Shown piece by piece: positions 613 through 51,139 of a stretch of 64,000 nucleotides of DNA. A program made the translations under genes and the position numbers. This DNA comes from Acetobacteraceae bacterium (GTDB lineage: Bacteria; Pseudomonadota; Alphaproteobacteria; Acetobacterales; Acetobacteraceae): the NCBI GenBank assembly GCA_027451405.1, contig DAIDJM010000030.1:1-64000 (forward strand), read 5' to 3'. Each line of letters starts with the position of its first letter. The stretch's first letter is position 1. Below the pieces are notes generated by a model. It made no database searches. It was not told the DNA's origin and saw only the letters and a list, made by a program, of their open reading frames with translations.

Positions 613-660
613 CGTGCGTTGCGCCCGCGCAACCCACCAGCAACGCCCCCGGGCCCCCGT

Positions 661-2829
661 GTGACCCTCAACGCCGCCGCCCCGGAAGCCCATTCCCGTG
701 TCGTCATCGACGCCCAACTCAAGGACGCCGGCTGGGCGCTGACGGACGGCCGCTCGGTCCGTTTCGAAGTCATGATGCCGGACGGCACCAAAGCCGACTA
801 TGTGCTCGGCGACCGGCACGGCCGCGCCCTCGCAATCCTCGAAGCCAAGCGCATCGCCATCGATCCGCTCGCCGCCGAGCAGCAGGCCCGCAACTACGCC
901 ACCCAGCTCGGCGTCCCCTTCATCTTCCTCGCCAACGGCCGCGAAATCTGGTTCTGGGACTACGAGCGCGAAGCCCACCCCCACCAGGTCAAGACCATCT
1001 TCTCGCAAGCCGACCTGGAACGCCGCTTCGCCGCCCGCCAGACCCAGCGCGACCTGCTCAGCATCGAAACCGACGACAAGATCGCCGGCCGCCCCTACCA
1101 GCGCGACTGCATCGACACGCTGTGCCGCGAAATCGTCGCCGGCCGCCGCAAGATGCTGGTCGAAATGGCAACCGGCACCGGCAAGACCCGCACCGCCGCC
1201 GCCCTGATCAAGCGCCTCTTCGCCGCCGGCATCGTCACCCGCGTGCTGTTCCTGGTCGACCGCATCCCGCTCGCGCGCCAAGCGGAAGACGCCTTCGCCG
1301 AATACCTCCCCGACCTGCCCGCTTACGTGAAACGTGCGGGCCGCCGTTTTCAGGACGAAAAGCGCATCACCATCACCACGCTCCAAAGCATGGTGAACGA
1401 CTACGCCGCCTACTCATCGGGCTATTTCGACCTGATCATTTCCGATGAATGTCATCGTTCCATTTACGGAAAATGGTCCGGCGTGCTCAAGCATTTCGAC
1501 GGGCTCCAGATCGGCCTCACCGCCACCCCCTGCGCCGCCTCGCCCGAAACCCTGGCCGCGCTGGAAGACGAGGAAGACCGCGCCTTCGTGCGCGACACGC
1601 TGCGCTTCTTCGAACTGGACCGGCCAACCTTCCGCTACGGACTGAAGCAGGCCATCCAGGAAGGCTATCTGGTTCCCTACCGCATCTACCACGCCATGAC
1701 GGTCAAAACCGCCGCCGAAGGCGGGTTCCCGGTCAGCCGCGCCGAGCTCGACTGGACCGCGATGGATGCCGACACCAAGGCGGAGTTCGAGGCGCTTTTC
1801 GCCAAGGAAGATCCGATCATCGTCGACCCGAACGCGCTGGAACGGCGCTTCACCATCCCCGAGCGGAACCGCGCCATGGTGCGCGAATTCCGCGACGTTC
1901 TGGCCCATGGCTACACCGGAGGCGACGGCGTGCGGCGTTTCCCCCAGGACGGCAAGACCATCGTCTTTGCCGTGACCAAGCGCCACGCCGCAACCCTCGC
2001 CCAGATGTTCGACGACGCCTTCGCCGACCGCAAACCCTCGCCCGAAATCCGCTACGCGGATTTCGTCGTCTCCGACTCCGGCGCCGACGATACGGTCAAC
2101 CCGCTGGACAAGATACGCCGGTTCAAGAAAGAGGACTTCCCCCGCATCCTGGTCTCGGTGAACATGCTGGACACCGGTTTCGACTGCCCCGAAGTCGTGA
2201 ATCTGGTCATGGCCCGCTTCACGAAATCCGCCATCCTCTATCAGCAGATGCGCGGCCGCGGTACGCGCCGCGCCGACCTCATCAAGAAAACAAGCTTCAC
2301 CATGTTCGATTTCACGGGCGTCACCGCCTACCACGGCGACGACGAAGACGTGCCGGCCGATGGCGGCTTCGTCGTCTCGGCCAAGAAACCCGAGCGCGAG
2401 AAGCGCAAGCGCGGTCTGCTGGTTCTCGACATCAACGACCATATCGACCCGGCCACCCGCGGCTGGGTCACGCTGGACGAAAACGGCAGCGAGCAGCGCG
2501 ACGCCCCGGCGATCGACCCCCGCGCCGCCGAGCTTGGCGCGCGCTTCGAAGGCTGGCTGCTCGATCAAACCGGCCTCACCCCCGACCAGGAGCGCCTGCT
2601 GCGCATGGTCGGCGAAGTCATCCGCGCCAACGCCGGCGACCTCGAAAGCATCGAGCCCTACCATTTCGCCAACGACCCTTTCCGCAATCTCGGGGGACGC
2701 CGCCTCGCCGAACGCCTGTTCGGCGGCCCGGAAGGGTTGGCGGCGCATCTCGCCAGCCTCAATGCGGCCGTCTTCGCACCCGCCGCCCCAATTCCCCCCG
2801 CCCCCGAGGCGGCCCGCCCCACCGCCTGA
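661..2829 (+). CDS. hsdR: Type I restriction enzyme R subunit
   Basis: A 722-aa motor and nuclease subunit of a type I restriction-modification complex, which translocates DNA and cuts at a distance when the HsdS target is unmethylated. Visible motifs: a PD-(D/E)XK-type nuclease core near the N terminus (D46...E61-x-K63, within DYVLG and LAILEAKR), Walker A MATGTGKT near 168-176, the DECH box at 261-264, a helicase C-terminal half with the QMRGRGTRR motif, and a C-terminal region of the EcoEI type. I chose GTG 661; the frame is open upstream to a TTG at 619 but that stretch resembles no family member. hsdM follows after 14 nt. Confidence 0.92.
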   Translation: MTLNAAAPEAHSRVVIDAQLKDAGWALTDGRSVRFEVMMPDGTKADYVLGDRHGRALAILEAKRIAIDPLAAEQQARNYATQLGVPFIFLANGREIWFWDYEREAHPHQVKTIFSQADLERRFAARQTQRDLLSIETDDKIAGRPYQRDCIDTLCREIVAGRRKMLVEMATGTGKTRTAAALIKRLFAAGIVTRVLFLVDRIPLARQAEDAFAEYLPDLPAYVKRAGRRFQDEKRITITTLQSMVNDYAAYSSGYFDLIISDECHRSIYGKWSGVLKHFDGLQIGLTATPCAASPETLAALEDEEDRAFVRDTLRFFELDRPTFRYGLKQAIQEGYLVPYRIYHAMTVKTAAEGGFPVSRAELDWTAMDADTKAEFEALFAKEDPIIVDPNALERRFTIPERNRAMVREFRDVLAHGYTGGDGVRRFPQDGKTIVFAVTKRHAATLAQMFDDAFADRKPSPEIRYADFVVSDSGADDTVNPLDKIRRFKKEDFPRILVSVNMLDTGFDCPEVVNLVMARFTKSAILYQQMRGRGTRRADLIKKTSFTMFDFTGVTAYHGDDEDVPADGGFVVSAKKPEREKRKRGLLVLDINDHIDPATRGWVTLDENGSEQRDAPAIDPRAAELGARFEGWLLDQTGLTPDQERLLRMVGEVIRANAGDLESIEPYHFANDPFRNLGGRRLAERLFGGPEGLAAHLASLNAAVFAPAAPIPPAPEAARPTA

Positions 2830-2843
2830 CCGGAAGCCCGCCG

Positions 2844-4466
2844 ATGCCCTTCACGCCCGAGATGCGCCAAAGCATCGATCAGATTCGCAACTACCTCTAT
2901 GGCGGCGGCTACCCCGACCCGGTCAGCAACGCCGAACAGCTTTCCTTTCTGTTCTTCTTCTACCTGATCGAAGGGCTCGATCAGGAAAACGCCGACCGTG
3001 CCCGCGCCGCCAGACAGCCTTACGAAAGCCTGTTCGCCGGCCCGCCCTGGACGCTCCGCAACCCGCTGAACGCGCCCGCCAAGGGCGAGACCACTATCCC
3101 GCGCAGCCGCTTCCGCTGGAGCCTCTGGGCGCGCGGCATGAGCGGCGCGTCCCTGATCACCTTCGTGCGCGACGAAGTCTTCCCGTTCTACGCCGAGATC
3201 GCCGAACGCTCCGCCGTCAATTTCATGGACGGCGCGCGCCTGGTCATCGACGACCCAACCGTATTTGCCCAAATCGTCACGCTGATCGATCAGCTCGGGC
3301 TCGACGACGCCGACGCCGACACCAAGGGCGACCTGTTCGAGCACATCCTGAAACAGATCAAGCAGGCCGGCGAACTCGGCCAGTTCCGCACCCCGCGCCA
3401 CATCATCCGCGCCATCGTCGCCATGGTGGACCCCAGGATCGGCGAGACGATCTACGACCCGGCGGCCGGCACCGCCGGCTTCCTGGTCGCCGCCTTCAAC
3501 CACATCCGCCTCGCCAATTCCGCGCAGATCGAGGAGATCGACCAGGACGGCAAGCGCATCCGCCGCGGCTATGGCGAGCGGCTGACCGCCGCCCAATGGG
3601 GCCAGTTGAACAACTCGACCTTCTACGGCAACGATGTCGATCCGAAAATGGTCCATCTCGCCACCATGAACCTCACGCTGCGCGGCCTCGCCAATGTGCT
3701 GATCCGCAAGCGCAACGTGCTCACCACCTCGCTCGACCGCGAGGAACGCGCGTCTCTCGGCCTGCCGACGGATGGCTACGACGTGATCCTTGCCAATCCG
3801 CCTTTCTCCGGCCGGGTGGACCGCGACCGCATCGTCGATGACGTCAAAATCGGCACCAGCACGGCGACCGAGCTGCTGTTCCTGAAATACATGATTGACA
3901 ATCTGAAGCCCGGCGGGCGCTGCGGCGTGATCGTCCCGGAAGGCGTGCTGTTCGGCTCCACGGGCGCGCACCGCGAGCTGCGCCGGATTCTCATGCAGAA
4001 CAACCAGGTGGAAGCGGTGCTCTCGCTTCCGGGCGGCGTCTTCCAGCCTTATTCCGGCGTGAAAACTTCGGCGCTGATTTTCCAGAAGGGTGGCCGCACC
4101 GAACGGGTGATTTTCCTGCACGCAAGCAATGACGGCTTCAAGCTCGACGCGAACCACGATCAGCCGATTGAGGCCGACGATCTGCCCGGCCTGATCGAGG
4201 CTTTTGGCAGCCGCGAGGAAAAATGGTCCGAGTGGCAGAACCGCGATGCGGAAAAGCCCTGGACGGAGAACTGGTGGTTTGCCGATCCCGGCAGAATCGA
4301 ACGCGAGGACTGGAATTTGTCCGGGTCCCGTTACCGGCCCGAAAGCCGGGAGGCGGCGGACCATCGCGATCCGCGCGTAATTCTGGAAGAATTGCAGGCG
4401 GATGTGGAGACAATGCTAGGCGACATTCAGGCGCTAGCTTTGGAGTTGCGGGGAAACGCGGCGTGA
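2844..4466 (+). CDS. hsdM: Type I modification methyltransferase M subunit
   Basis: A 540-aa N6-adenine methyltransferase subunit. It has an N-terminal HsdM helical domain (starting MPFTPEMRQSID), an AdoMet-binding motif I DPAAGTAGF near residue 205 and the catalytic NPPF motif near 318, with a C-terminal helical region that would contact HsdS. The start ATG at 2844 fits family length. Its TGA overlaps the GTG start of hsdS (GTGA), indicating translational coupling. With HsdS it methylates the recognition site, and with HsdR it forms the restriction complex. No missing motif was seen, so the enzyme is probably functional. Confidence 0.93.
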   Translation: MPFTPEMRQSIDQIRNYLYGGGYPDPVSNAEQLSFLFFFYLIEGLDQENADRARAARQPYESLFAGPPWTLRNPLNAPAKGETTIPRSRFRWSLWARGMSGASLITFVRDEVFPFYAEIAERSAVNFMDGARLVIDDPTVFAQIVTLIDQLGLDDADADTKGDLFEHILKQIKQAGELGQFRTPRHIIRAIVAMVDPRIGETIYDPAAGTAGFLVAAFNHIRLANSAQIEEIDQDGKRIRRGYGERLTAAQWGQLNNSTFYGNDVDPKMVHLATMNLTLRGLANVLIRKRNVLTTSLDREERASLGLPTDGYDVILANPPFSGRVDRDRIVDDVKIGTSTATELLFLKYMIDNLKPGGRCGVIVPEGVLFGSTGAHRELRRILMQNNQVEAVLSLPGGVFQPYSGVKTSALIFQKGGRTERVIFLHASNDGFKLDANHDQPIEADDLPGLIEAFGSREEKWSEWQNRDAEKPWTENWWFADPGRIEREDWNLSGSRYRPESREAADHRDPRVILEELQADVETMLGDIQALALELRGNAA

Positions 4467-5599
4467 ATGCAGCGCTGGTCGACTTCTGCACCTTTTCCGG
4501 GGGCGGAAAGCTCAAGCTCTCGAAGCAGCACTACGTTCCAGAGGGCTTTCCAGCATTTAGCGCGGCGGGCCAGGACGGTTACGTTAGTACAGCAGAGTTT
4601 CATGCCCCCGCGATCGTGGTGTCCGCGATCGGCGCAAGGTGCGGCAAGGCATTTTTGGCCGATGGCGCTTGGACTTCACTTGCCAATACGTATTGCGTCT
4701 TTCCAGACACATCGAGGGCTGATCCACGTTTCCTCTGGTATCAATTAAACGACGAAAACAGTTGGAAGAAATCCGGAACCGCGCAGCCCTTCATCAAACC
4801 GAGCGACATCAAACAGCGGCAGGTCGTTCTCCCGCCGCTGGAGGAACAACGCCGGATCGTGCGCGTACTGGACCGAGCGGCGGAGATCAGGCGCCGCGCC
4901 GACACCGCCCGCACCAAGGCCCGCGCCATCATCCCCGCCCTCTTCCTCGACATGTTCGGCGACCCGACGACGCTGATTGAACGCTGGGGTGGCGCATGCT
5001 TCGAAAACCTCGTCAGCTCAAAGCTGCTCGGGCTAGTTCGCTCTACTCGCCATCAGAGCGAGACTGGAGCAGTTGGCTACGTTCGGATGAACGCAATCAC
5101 CATCGACGGTCGGGTCTTGCTGAACGATCTGCGTCGAACCGACGTGACGCCCGAAGAAGCAGCGTCGCACGCGCTTCGACCTGGAGACCTGCTCTTCAAC
5201 ACCCGAAATTCCTACGATTTGGTCGGCAAAATAGGGCTTTACGCTGGGCCACCTAACAACGTATTCAACAACAACATAATGCGGCTACGATTTGATAATC
5301 GTGTGTCCGCAGCATTCCTCAACGCCTATTTTCAAACACCTGCAGGCCAAGCAAGCATTAAATCGATTAAAAAGGGCACGACGTCTGTGTGCGCGATCTA
5401 CTACAAGGATTTGGCGAAGATCGAAGTCCCTCTACCACCGCTCCCGCTCCAGAACGCCTTCGGCGAACAAGCCCACCGCTTAGAGACAATCGCCACAAAC
5501 CTCGACAGCGCCGTCACAAAGGCCGAAGCCATGGCTGCGGCCCTTTCGGCGGAGGTCTTCAAGACCGACGCTGCAGCAGCTTTGTGCGATGCCGCTTGA
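4463..5599 (+). CDS. hsdS: Type I specificity subunit
   Basis: A 378-aa DNA-recognition subunit. The start is a GTG at 4463 overlapping the hsdM stop. Two target-recognition halves are each followed by a conserved helical spacer. The first spacer is near residues 120-170 (VVLPPLEEQRRIVRVLDRAAEIR). The second, near 325-370, contains VPLPPLPLQNAFGEQ and ends in a long helix. The sequence specificity cannot be read from the protein. The TRD regions have weaker GC bias than hsdR and hsdM, as is usual for exchanged specificity modules. The last 11 nt overlap a truncated DarT-like frame. Confidence 0.9.
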   Translation: MNAALVDFCTFSGGGKLKLSKQHYVPEGFPAFSAAGQDGYVSTAEFHAPAIVVSAIGARCGKAFLADGAWTSLANTYCVFPDTSRADPRFLWYQLNDENSWKKSGTAQPFIKPSDIKQRQVVLPPLEEQRRIVRVLDRAAEIRRRADTARTKARAIIPALFLDMFGDPTTLIERWGGACFENLVSSKLLGLVRSTRHQSETGAVGYVRMNAITIDGRVLLNDLRRTDVTPEEAASHALRPGDLLFNTRNSYDLVGKIGLYAGPPNNVFNNNIMRLRFDNRVSAAFLNAYFQTPAGQASIKSIKKGTTSVCAIYYKDLAKIEVPLPPLPLQNAFGEQAHRLETIATNLDSAVTKAEAMAAALSAEVFKTDAAAALCDAA

Positions 5600-5980: not shown

Positions 5981-6009
5981 TTGACAGAGTTCTTGTTTTG
6001 TTCCAGTCT
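5981..6009 (+). promoter_or_regulatory. SOS promoter: -35 with perfect LexA box
   Basis: TTGACA at 5981-5986 is a consensus -35. A perfect alphaproteobacterial LexA box, GTTC (5989-5992)-N7-GTTC (6000-6003), fills the 17-nt spacer. A weak -10 (CAGTCT, 6004-6009) places the transcription start at about 6016, the proposed GTG codon. The same arrangement with identical spacing precedes the paralog at 51104. LexA would block RNA polymerase directly. Confidence 0.8.
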
Positions 6010-6015
6010 GCCGCC

Positions 6016-6606
6016 GTGACCGACCTCCCCATCGGCCTCGCGGTAAACCTCCGCTACGTCCTGCGCTGGCTCCAGGCGGCCCTCCGCCCCGCGCCCGCCG
6101 ACGAGCGCCATGCCCGCCGCACCACCATCGCCTCCCGCTGGCTCGACCGGCTGAGCGTGCGCCTCCTGCGCCTCATCCGCCAAACCCTCGCCGGCACCCT
6201 CAAAGCCCCCGAGCGCCGCGACCCTGCCCGCGCGGTCGCCTCCCCCCGCGCCCCCGCCGCGCGCTGGGCCCTCCCGCGCAGCTTCGGCTGGCTCGCCCGC
6301 CTCCTTCCCCAATCGGTGCCCGCCGCCGAAGCCCTGACCGCCCTGGTCGAGGATGCCGAGCTCGACGCCCTGATCCGCGCGGAGCCCGCCCGCTTCGGCC
6401 GCCTCCTCCGCCCGCTCTACCGCGCGCTCGATCTCCGCCCGCCCGACCACCTCCTGCTCTCTTTCCCGCGCCGCCGTCCTCGCCCCGCCGCGCCGCCCCC
6501 CACCCGGTCACCCGCCGCGCCCGCCGCGCAAGCGCCCGCGCCCGGCGACCCCTCCCACCATCGAGGCCCGCCGCCCGGCTTCCAATACACCCCGAAAGCG
6601 GCCTGA
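6016..6606 (+). CDS. LexA-box-controlled uncharacterised protein, copy 1
   Basis: A 196-aa protein of unknown function, very rich in Arg, Ala and Pro. The N-terminal half is amphipathic and helical. The best-conserved part is ALPRSFGWLAR (about residues 85-95), followed by AEPARFGRLLRPLYRAL and a Pro-rich tail. It is paralogous to the gene at 50538-51104, which shares ALPRSFGWLAR, AEPAR and RLLRPL in the same order. I chose GTG 6016 because it sits 35 nt downstream of the -35, exactly as in the other copy, and leaves essentially no 5' leader. Induction by DNA damage is inferred from the promoter. No catalytic motif is recognisable. Confidence 0.75.
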   Translation: MTDLPIGLAVNLRYVLRWLQAALRPAPADERHARRTTIASRWLDRLSVRLLRLIRQTLAGTLKAPERRDPARAVASPRAPAARWALPRSFGWLARLLPQSVPAAEALTALVEDAELDALIRAEPARFGRLLRPLYRALDLRPPDHLLLSFPRRRPRPAAPPPTRSPAAPAAQAPAPGDPSHHRGPPPGFQYTPKAA

Positions 6607-6646
6607 CCGCCGCACGCCCATTTTATTCCGTTGTAGTAACAAATAA

Positions 6647-50483: not shown

Positions 50484-50537
50484 ATTCTTTTGTTTTGTCC
50501 TCGTAACATTATGAACGCGCGAAAGCGCGGGCGGCGT

Positions 50538-51104
50538 TCAGCCGATTTTCGGCGAGAGGGCGTCGAAGATCGGATGGCCGCGGCGGGGCCAGTCTTTGTA
50601 GGATGGGACCCATTCCTCGGGCGCGGCCTGGGATGGGGGGTCGCGGATCGGTTCGGGGGGTTTGATGCCGAAGGCGTGGCAGAGCGGGCGCAGGAGCCGG
50701 CGGCAGCGGGCGGGCTCGGCGGCGAGCAGGTCTCGCAGCGCGGGGTCGGCGAGCCTGGCTTCGACTTCGTCGATCACGGCGTCGGGGCGCTCGAGTTCGC
50801 GGGCAAGCCAGCCGAAGCTGCGGGGCAGCGCGATCCGGCGGATCGCGGGTCTGGCGCGCTCGGGGGGCTCGGCGCGGGTGGCGGGCGCCCGGGGGCGAGG
50901 CGGGCGGAGCCGGCCTTCGGCGTGAAGGGCGGCGAGGCGGGCGAATTTGGCGATGATCGCGTCGATCCAGAGGGTCGCGGCGGTGATGCGGCCGATGCGG
51001 GGGCCGCGTTCGCTGGGCTCGAGGGAGCCGATCACGGCGGCCCGCAAATTGTGAAGGGCCGTGAGGAGAGCGGCGACGAAGCCAGGCGGGCGCGGCGGGA
51101 GCAC
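50538..51104 (-). CDS. LexA-box-controlled uncharacterised protein, copy 2
   Basis: A 188-aa paralog of the protein at 6016. Helical N-terminal half (ALLTALHNLRAAVIGSL), then ALPRSFGWLAR at residues 92-102, AEPARCRRLLRPLCHAFGIKPPE, and a divergent C-terminal tail ending WPRRGHPIFDALSPK. The GTG at 51104 is 35 nt from the -35, as in copy 1. The open frame continues far upstream of 51104 but that part is non-coding. Function unknown; DNA-damage induction predicted. Confidence 0.75.
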   Translation of the reverse strand: MLPPRPPGFVAALLTALHNLRAAVIGSLEPSERGPRIGRITAATLWIDAIIAKFARLAALHAEGRLRPPRPRAPATRAEPPERARPAIRRIALPRSFGWLARELERPDAVIDEVEARLADPALRDLLAAEPARCRRLLRPLCHAFGIKPPEPIRDPPSQAAPEEWVPSYKDWPRRGHPIFDALSPKIG

Positions 51105-51110
51105 GGGGCG

Positions 51111-51139
51111 ATTATTGAACAAAACAGGAACGTGGTCAA
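51111..51139 (-). promoter_or_regulatory. SOS promoter: -35, perfect LexA box, -10
   Basis: On the minus strand: TTGACC (51139-51134), GTTC-N7-GTTC (51131-51117), then AATAAT (51116-51111) as -10 after a 17-nt spacer. The predicted transcription start coincides with the GTG at 51104, so the mRNA would be leaderless. Confidence 0.82.

Follow-up and report, generated by a model that had tools for sequence, protein, structure and literature searches.

SulA, SidA/DidA, TisB and SymE are division inhibitors and toxins that the SOS response induces; they are small and their control is of the LexA type. The protein family described here is like them in the small size of its products and in its putative LexA-type control; it differs from them in its predicted helical bundle with a basic tail, in its tens of copies, and in having no sequence match in NCBIfam to SulA, the one among them that was compared. 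A second point of reference is the leaderless bacterial gene: as in such genes, the -35 element of the family lies 35-38 nt from the start codon and hardly any sequence resembling a Shine-Dalgarno (SD) element is found, but here an entire expanded paralog family preserves this layout from genus to genus, with a changing operator. A third close system is the alphaproteobacterial LexA regulon, for which two papers (PMC12700426, PMC7987155) give GTTC-N7-GTTC as the LexA motif of Caulobacter and alphaproteobacteria. The family resembles this regulon in the sequence of the box, its spacing and its place over the core promoter, and it has the box in common with an ImuA-like gene. Unlike in the known regulon, eleven paralogs of a single family hold the genome's only exact TTGAC-N3-box layouts, the family appears to be leaderless, and no exact box is present in the sampled members of most related genomes.

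The window, by which we mean the whole 64,000-nucleotide stretch of DNA that was analysed, belongs to contig C30 of an Acetobacteraceae genome (G000; 3.37 Mb in 67 contigs) and carries two copies of the gene. Copy 1, on the forward strand, occupies 6016..6606 and encodes 196 residues, with a putatively leaderless GTG at 6016-6018 and a stop at 6606. Counted from the initial T of the -35 element TTGACA (5981..5986), its GTG is 35 nt away, and the LexA-type box GTTCTTGTTTTGTTC (5989..6003) occupies the spacer between this element and a weak -10 position, CAGTCT (6004..6009); other copies in this genome have GATACA, CATACA, AATAAT and similar at this place. The gene is followed by a family-associated 3' motif, CACGCCCATTTTATTCCGTTGTAGTAACAA (6613..6642, forward strand). 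Copy 2 lies on the reverse strand at 50538..51104 (188 residues, putatively leaderless GTG at 51102-51104, stop at 50538), with -35 TTGACC at 51134..51139, the LexA-type box GTTCCTGTTTTGTTC at 51117..51131, -10 AATAAT at 51111..51116 and, at 50492..50517 on the same strand, a diverged 3' motif, CGTTCATAATGTTACGAGGACAAAAC, which was recognised by eye and missed by pattern searches. The first-pass annotation had given both loci the same -35 element, an exact GTTC-N7-GTTC box and a GTG 35 nt from the -35, along with the shared peptides ALPRSFGWLAR, AEPAR and RLLRPL. The peptides are present in both proteins, and box and distance are seen at both copies; the shared -35 is not exact, as TTGACA at copy 1 reads TTGACC at copy 2. 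The bare box occurs twice in the window, against 1.63 occurrences expected from shuffles; this is about the chance frequency, and the argument therefore rests on the whole layout. Just upstream of copy 1, at 619-5599, genes resembling the type I restriction-modification genes hsdR, hsdM and hsdS were seen by eye.

The proposal of a real paralog family at separate loci extends well beyond two loci: a search with copy 1 finds 12 copies in the 3.37-Mb genome, and a profile search finds the same 12. The twelfth member, on contig C15, lacks its 5' end. Identity of the members to copy 1 is 32-38%, or 37-42% by local alignment, and the copies on C66, C47 and C41 have 93-95% DNA identity among the three. 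Two extra relatives, on C57 and C65, were reached through the 3' motif. The C65 relative is a C-terminal piece at the contig end, and the C57 relative is a short, leaderless-looking form with GTTAGCGATCCTAAC at the place of the LexA box (G000:C57:10671; locus L213, about 1087-1520). Three near-identical copies (L013, L014 and L015) have a common upstream hairpin-rich repeat (GGGGTCTGGGGCCTTCCGGCCCCAGCGGG...), which is also found inverted elsewhere in L013. By rough gene calling, the downstream gene lies on the opposite strand at 7 of the 11 copies, a proportion not clearly above chance.

All 11 copies with a 5' end have TTGAC-N3-GTTC-N7-GTTC, and the GTG follows 35-36 nt after the initial T of the -35. 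The genome contains exactly 11 perfect matches to the pattern TTGACNNNGTTCNNNNNNNGTTC, all of them upstream of family members; for two further sites with one mismatch, no link to the family was established. A search for TTGACNNNGTTCNNNNNTTGTTC gave no match with the reversed-pattern control and none in the remaining 199 genomes of this bacterial family. All 11 promoters agree in TTGAC, GTTC, TTTGTTC and a single base of the -10, and the N3 and the first three N7 bases vary, holding only 0.65-0.9 bits. With the layout fixed and the proteins 32-42% identical, the promoter is thus far better kept than the protein. The box had been proposed to fall within the promoter spacer, and this is found in all 11 promoters, where it fills the 17-nt -35/-10 spacer and sits where a block of the promoter would be expected; because it fills the spacer, there would hardly be room for LexA and RNA polymerase at once.

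One LexA is encoded in the genome. The bare GTTC-N7-GTTC has 82 genome sites vs 43 for a reversed control, and many bare sites are therefore due to chance. The stricter pattern GTTCNNNNTTTGTTC has 13 sites, made up of the 11 family promoters, the ImuA-like gene and a gene on C44. At the ImuA-like gene, whose match to NCBIfam NF033429 (E 8.3e-15, 55 bits) is under the cut-off of 150, the site is in reverse orientation and abuts the ATG. Boxes at SOS genes were compared for the two that were located, recA and uvrA not being among them: the ImuA-like gene has the strict box and lexA's own box has one mismatch. Based on these sequences, LexA control of the family in this genome is likely. The suggestion that this is a damage-response family is thus upheld in part: a LexA-type box is present in all 11 copies here that retain their 5' end, but it is not a rule for the family as a whole. 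Other sites of this type were seen elsewhere in the genome. On C44 (G000:C44:34254-34268; L020), an exact LexA-type box abuts the GTG of a leaderless-looking gene for 197 residues with no Pfam match; considered as a family member, this gene has no detectable relationship to the others. GTTC-N7-GTTC also occurs beside an apparent parE (G000:C13:52102-52116; L256) and beside a gene for a helix-turn-helix regulator (G000:C9:35625-35639; L242), both recognised by eye and both possible LexA targets.

Promoters and operators outside this genome were studied in 125 distinct members, a sample skewed towards the top profile matches and obtained from 129 rows by removing four repeats of the same locus. 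It includes the best 20 of 46 members in G150, 13 of 31 in G090, 6 of 19 in G091, 8 of 23 in G033 and 12 of 37 in G020. Three sampled rows and the C15 copy, with its missing 5' end, were left out of the scoring. The row L267, whose start is uncertain, was assigned as box-bearing by hand, and the box of L266 directly adjoins an ATG in frame and not the TTG chosen by the script. With start codons picked blind to the promoter, TTGA or TTGC is found 35-38 nt upstream of the start in 98 of the 125 members, and no other 4-nt bin holds more than six; the geometry seen twice in the window is therefore a family trait. An SD-like sequence precedes the start in 3 of 125 members (a raw count, without control). 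The leaderless GTG starts read from the window are thus supported here by promoter geometry, and the layout is the rule in the sampled members; on this evidence the family would, as a rule, be leaderless.

The gene is present in at least 37 of 200 genomes and at least 20 of 102 genera of the same bacterial family (G000 included), with at most the best 16 candidates scored per genome (for G000, the best 16 of 81). A class-wide screen of 385 genomes, with at most the best 8 candidates scored in each, found none in the 384 other genomes, at least 4 of which are from the same bacterial family; this negative is soft because the scoring of candidates was shallow. As far as sampled, the protein family is confined to one bacterial family. 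A recount in six genomes, for three of which the best 150 of a larger number of candidates were scored, gave at least 46, 37, 31, 23, 22 and 19 copies. Shortly after the stop, mostly at 5-22 nt, many members in several genera have a sequence like CACGCCCATTTTGTTACGATATCGTAACAAAA, which is found within 8 substitutions in 48 of 121 members vs 3 of 665 shuffled windows. In G000, all 7 matches with up to two mismatches are at family members or at the C57 and C65 relatives. Among 29 matches in G152, 11 are at members from the copy recount; 12 others were inspected by eye, of which about 8 stand after a relative, full-length or short, and the other 4 are ambiguous.

The products are predicted to be small and strongly basic and to fold as helical bundles; their median pI is 12 and their charge +22 over 70 members. 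AlphaFold2, using a 70-member alignment, gives a helical bundle at residues 6-147 and a low-confidence Pro/Arg tail (pLDDT 83.6; 88-96 in the blocks 11-60 and 91-150, and lower between). The earlier reading, that nothing identifies a function, still holds: Pfam gave nothing convincing (TilS at E 0.12 in one protein, EccE at E 0.0095 in 1 of 70), NCBIfam, SulA models included, no match in 70 members at E 0.01, PHROGs no match, and PADLOC two noise matches only, each in 1 of 11 members. Among PDB sequences a designed protein came up at E 0.0067 and the remainder above E 0.5; Rfam gave, near copy 1, only a microRNA model far below its cut-off. Foldseek against PDB and viral libraries returned nothing significant (best E 0.77, an unrelated chain), and in a structural comparison (VIA), considered for a Dps- or ferritin-like bundle, the best match, 5hjf_D, had Z 6.8, rmsd 3.8 and 104 aligned residues, below the tool's noise line. 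No paper on such a family was found by title or abstract, from which absence from print does not follow; as far as searched, the family is undescribed, as the first-pass annotation had thought. Because of the charge, our guess is that the products bind nucleic acid or the nucleoid.

That the LexA box would hold for the family at large is not confirmed by the upstream regions of homologs: only 39 of 125 sampled members, in 7 of 26 scorable genomes, have an exact GTTC-N7-GTTC, and it is absent from the sampled members of the other 19. The exact counts are 11 of 11 in G000, 11 of 13 in G090, 6 of 6 in G091, 8 of 20 in G150, 1 of 4 in G018 (the other three have one mismatch), and 1 of 1 in both G113 and G181. 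A general lack of the box among homologs had been named as evidence against the proposal, and it is what we see in most genomes; yet the box recurs, with a different geometry, in other genera. Outside G000 it almost always runs up to the start codon, 12-13 nt nearer than in G000, and it abuts the called start in 9 of the 11 box-bearing members of G090 and in all of those in G091 and G150. The information content of these boxes is biased, since exact boxes were selected. In the tree of 129 members, the box-bearing ones outside G000 lie within another branch (support 95), G181 excepted, whose placement is unsure. Fourteen changes of the box state are required on this tree, so the box comes and goes, and gains and losses cannot be simply counted.

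Other motifs are found at family promoters elsewhere. GTTA-N7-TAAC is present in 8 of 8 sampled members of G193 (0 of 2500 in a shuffled control) and GTNA-N7-TAAC in 8 of 12 in G020, with TAAC overlapping the -10 in both genomes. In G150, GTTA-N7-TGTC is found in 10 of 20 sampled members vs the LexA box in 8 of 20. With up to two mismatches allowed, the palindrome GGTTAGTTATATAACTAACC is found 8 times in G033, always at a family member (8 of 23 copies); two genomes of the same genus lack it. Of ten lexA promoters inspected, eight have an exact GAAC-N7-GAAC, among them those of G004, G020, G033, G041 and G193; that of G000 has one mismatch, and that of G152 only one clear half-site. An altered LexA specificity in the box-less genera finds no support in this, as lexA keeps an exact box in 5 of 6 checked genomes whose members have none. 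Members without the box where lexA keeps it suggest that a second factor, other than LexA, may act on the family in the box-less genomes.

Several other explanations have to be weighed. A spurious open reading frame in GC-rich DNA might be suspected from the long overlapping frames on both strands, but this is refuted and keeps next to no probability: all 14 pairs compared in related MAGs (near copies, or copies at one locus) have a dN/dS of 0.24-0.61, the differences among the three near copies are in third-position excess, and the alignment yields a confident model. The pooled dN/dS of 0.43 indicates a real, fast-evolving protein under purifying selection. Promoter, reading frame and 3' motif might alternatively form a non-autonomous mobile cassette with the gene as cargo. 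Such a cassette would account for 12-46 dispersed copies per genome, for a unit bounded by the -35 and the family-associated 3' motif, and for copies in one MAG group that are mostly 78-88% identical over about 1 kb. However, many copies share a locus in related MAGs, one 3' flank is common to two genomes of one genus, and no relative was found in plasmid, phage and viral-contig collections, whether with a single member or with an 11-member alignment. In the 129-member tree (a quick search with long branches), moreover, members group mostly by genome, and all 12 G000 copies form one branch with support 92. We thus consider a cassette improbable; vertical inheritance with repeated duplication fits the dispersed copies best. 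Two insertions beside copies in related MAGs proved by eye to be ordinary genes, a HicAB-like pair and an EamA-like transporter. One MAG copy, L077, resembles one locus of a related MAG in its left flank and another in its right flank (L096 and L086), by recombination between copies or misassembly.

The family could also be an SOS-induced toxin or growth-arrest family, with an action like that of TisB/SymE or SulA, silenced since its expression is harmful. Operator-like motifs overlap the core promoter or the start wherever a motif was recognised, and evolution is fast (dN/dS 0.43), as this would have it; yet the NCBIfam toxin and SulA models have no match and PADLOC gives noise only, and length and model are unlike small membrane toxins. 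We regard this as unlikely, if conceivable. It is a little less probable, in our view, that a repressor specific to the family, with operators of each lineage's own, reads the box, the likeness to LexA being coincidental here. The recurrent motifs at the same place in G193 (8 of 8), G020 (8 of 12) and G150 (10 of 20) are in line with such a repressor, as is the restriction of all 8 GGTTAGTTATATAACTAACC sites in G033 to family members. Against it, the identical strict box stands at the ImuA-like gene, the box matches the alphaproteobacterial LexA boxes given in PMC12700426 and PMC7987155, other genera have exact GTTC-N7-GTTC as well, at another position, and the G033 palindrome is missing from two genomes of its own genus.

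We thus favour, with a probability of roughly 0.7, the explanation that this is a lineage-expanded leaderless family that is LexA-controlled in this genome, with basic helical-bundle products that would be damage-induced and perhaps bind nucleic acid. Counting against the LexA part are the 19 of 26 genomes whose sampled members have no exact box, the poor -10 of copy 1, the mismatch in the G000 lexA box and GTTAGCGATCCTAAC at the C57 relative. We infer LexA binding, damage induction and a transcript start at the GTG from the promoter sequences. Most likely, LexA on the GTTC-N7-GTTC box in the spacer would shut all 11 present promoters together; upon DNA damage, RecA would trigger the self-cleavage of LexA and the copies would be transcribed in concert, with mRNAs starting at the GTG. 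Our best guess is that the basic helical-bundle products, with their Pro/Arg-rich tail, then attach to nucleic acid or to the nucleoid once the cell is damaged, and the number of copies would supply the dose.

More tentatively, and with less than even odds, we speculate that a single repressor controls many or all members in parallel, and that this wiring is rewritten between lineages (LexA, or a 4-N7-4 operator such as GTTA-N7-TAAC) as the gene, its leaderless promoter and often its 3' motif persist. The family might then be a dosage-amplified stress effector recurrently captured by the SOS response; we do not put this higher because the operators are common to only part of the G033, G020 and G150 copies. 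If LexA controls all copies here, eleven promoters of the SOS response in this organism, acting in parallel, would come from one uncharacterised family, which would also offer a natural paralogous series of leaderless promoters for studying the coexistence of a repressor site with a leaderless start. That operators differ between related genera bears on how whole paralog families may be gained and lost by a regulon, and is directly testable.
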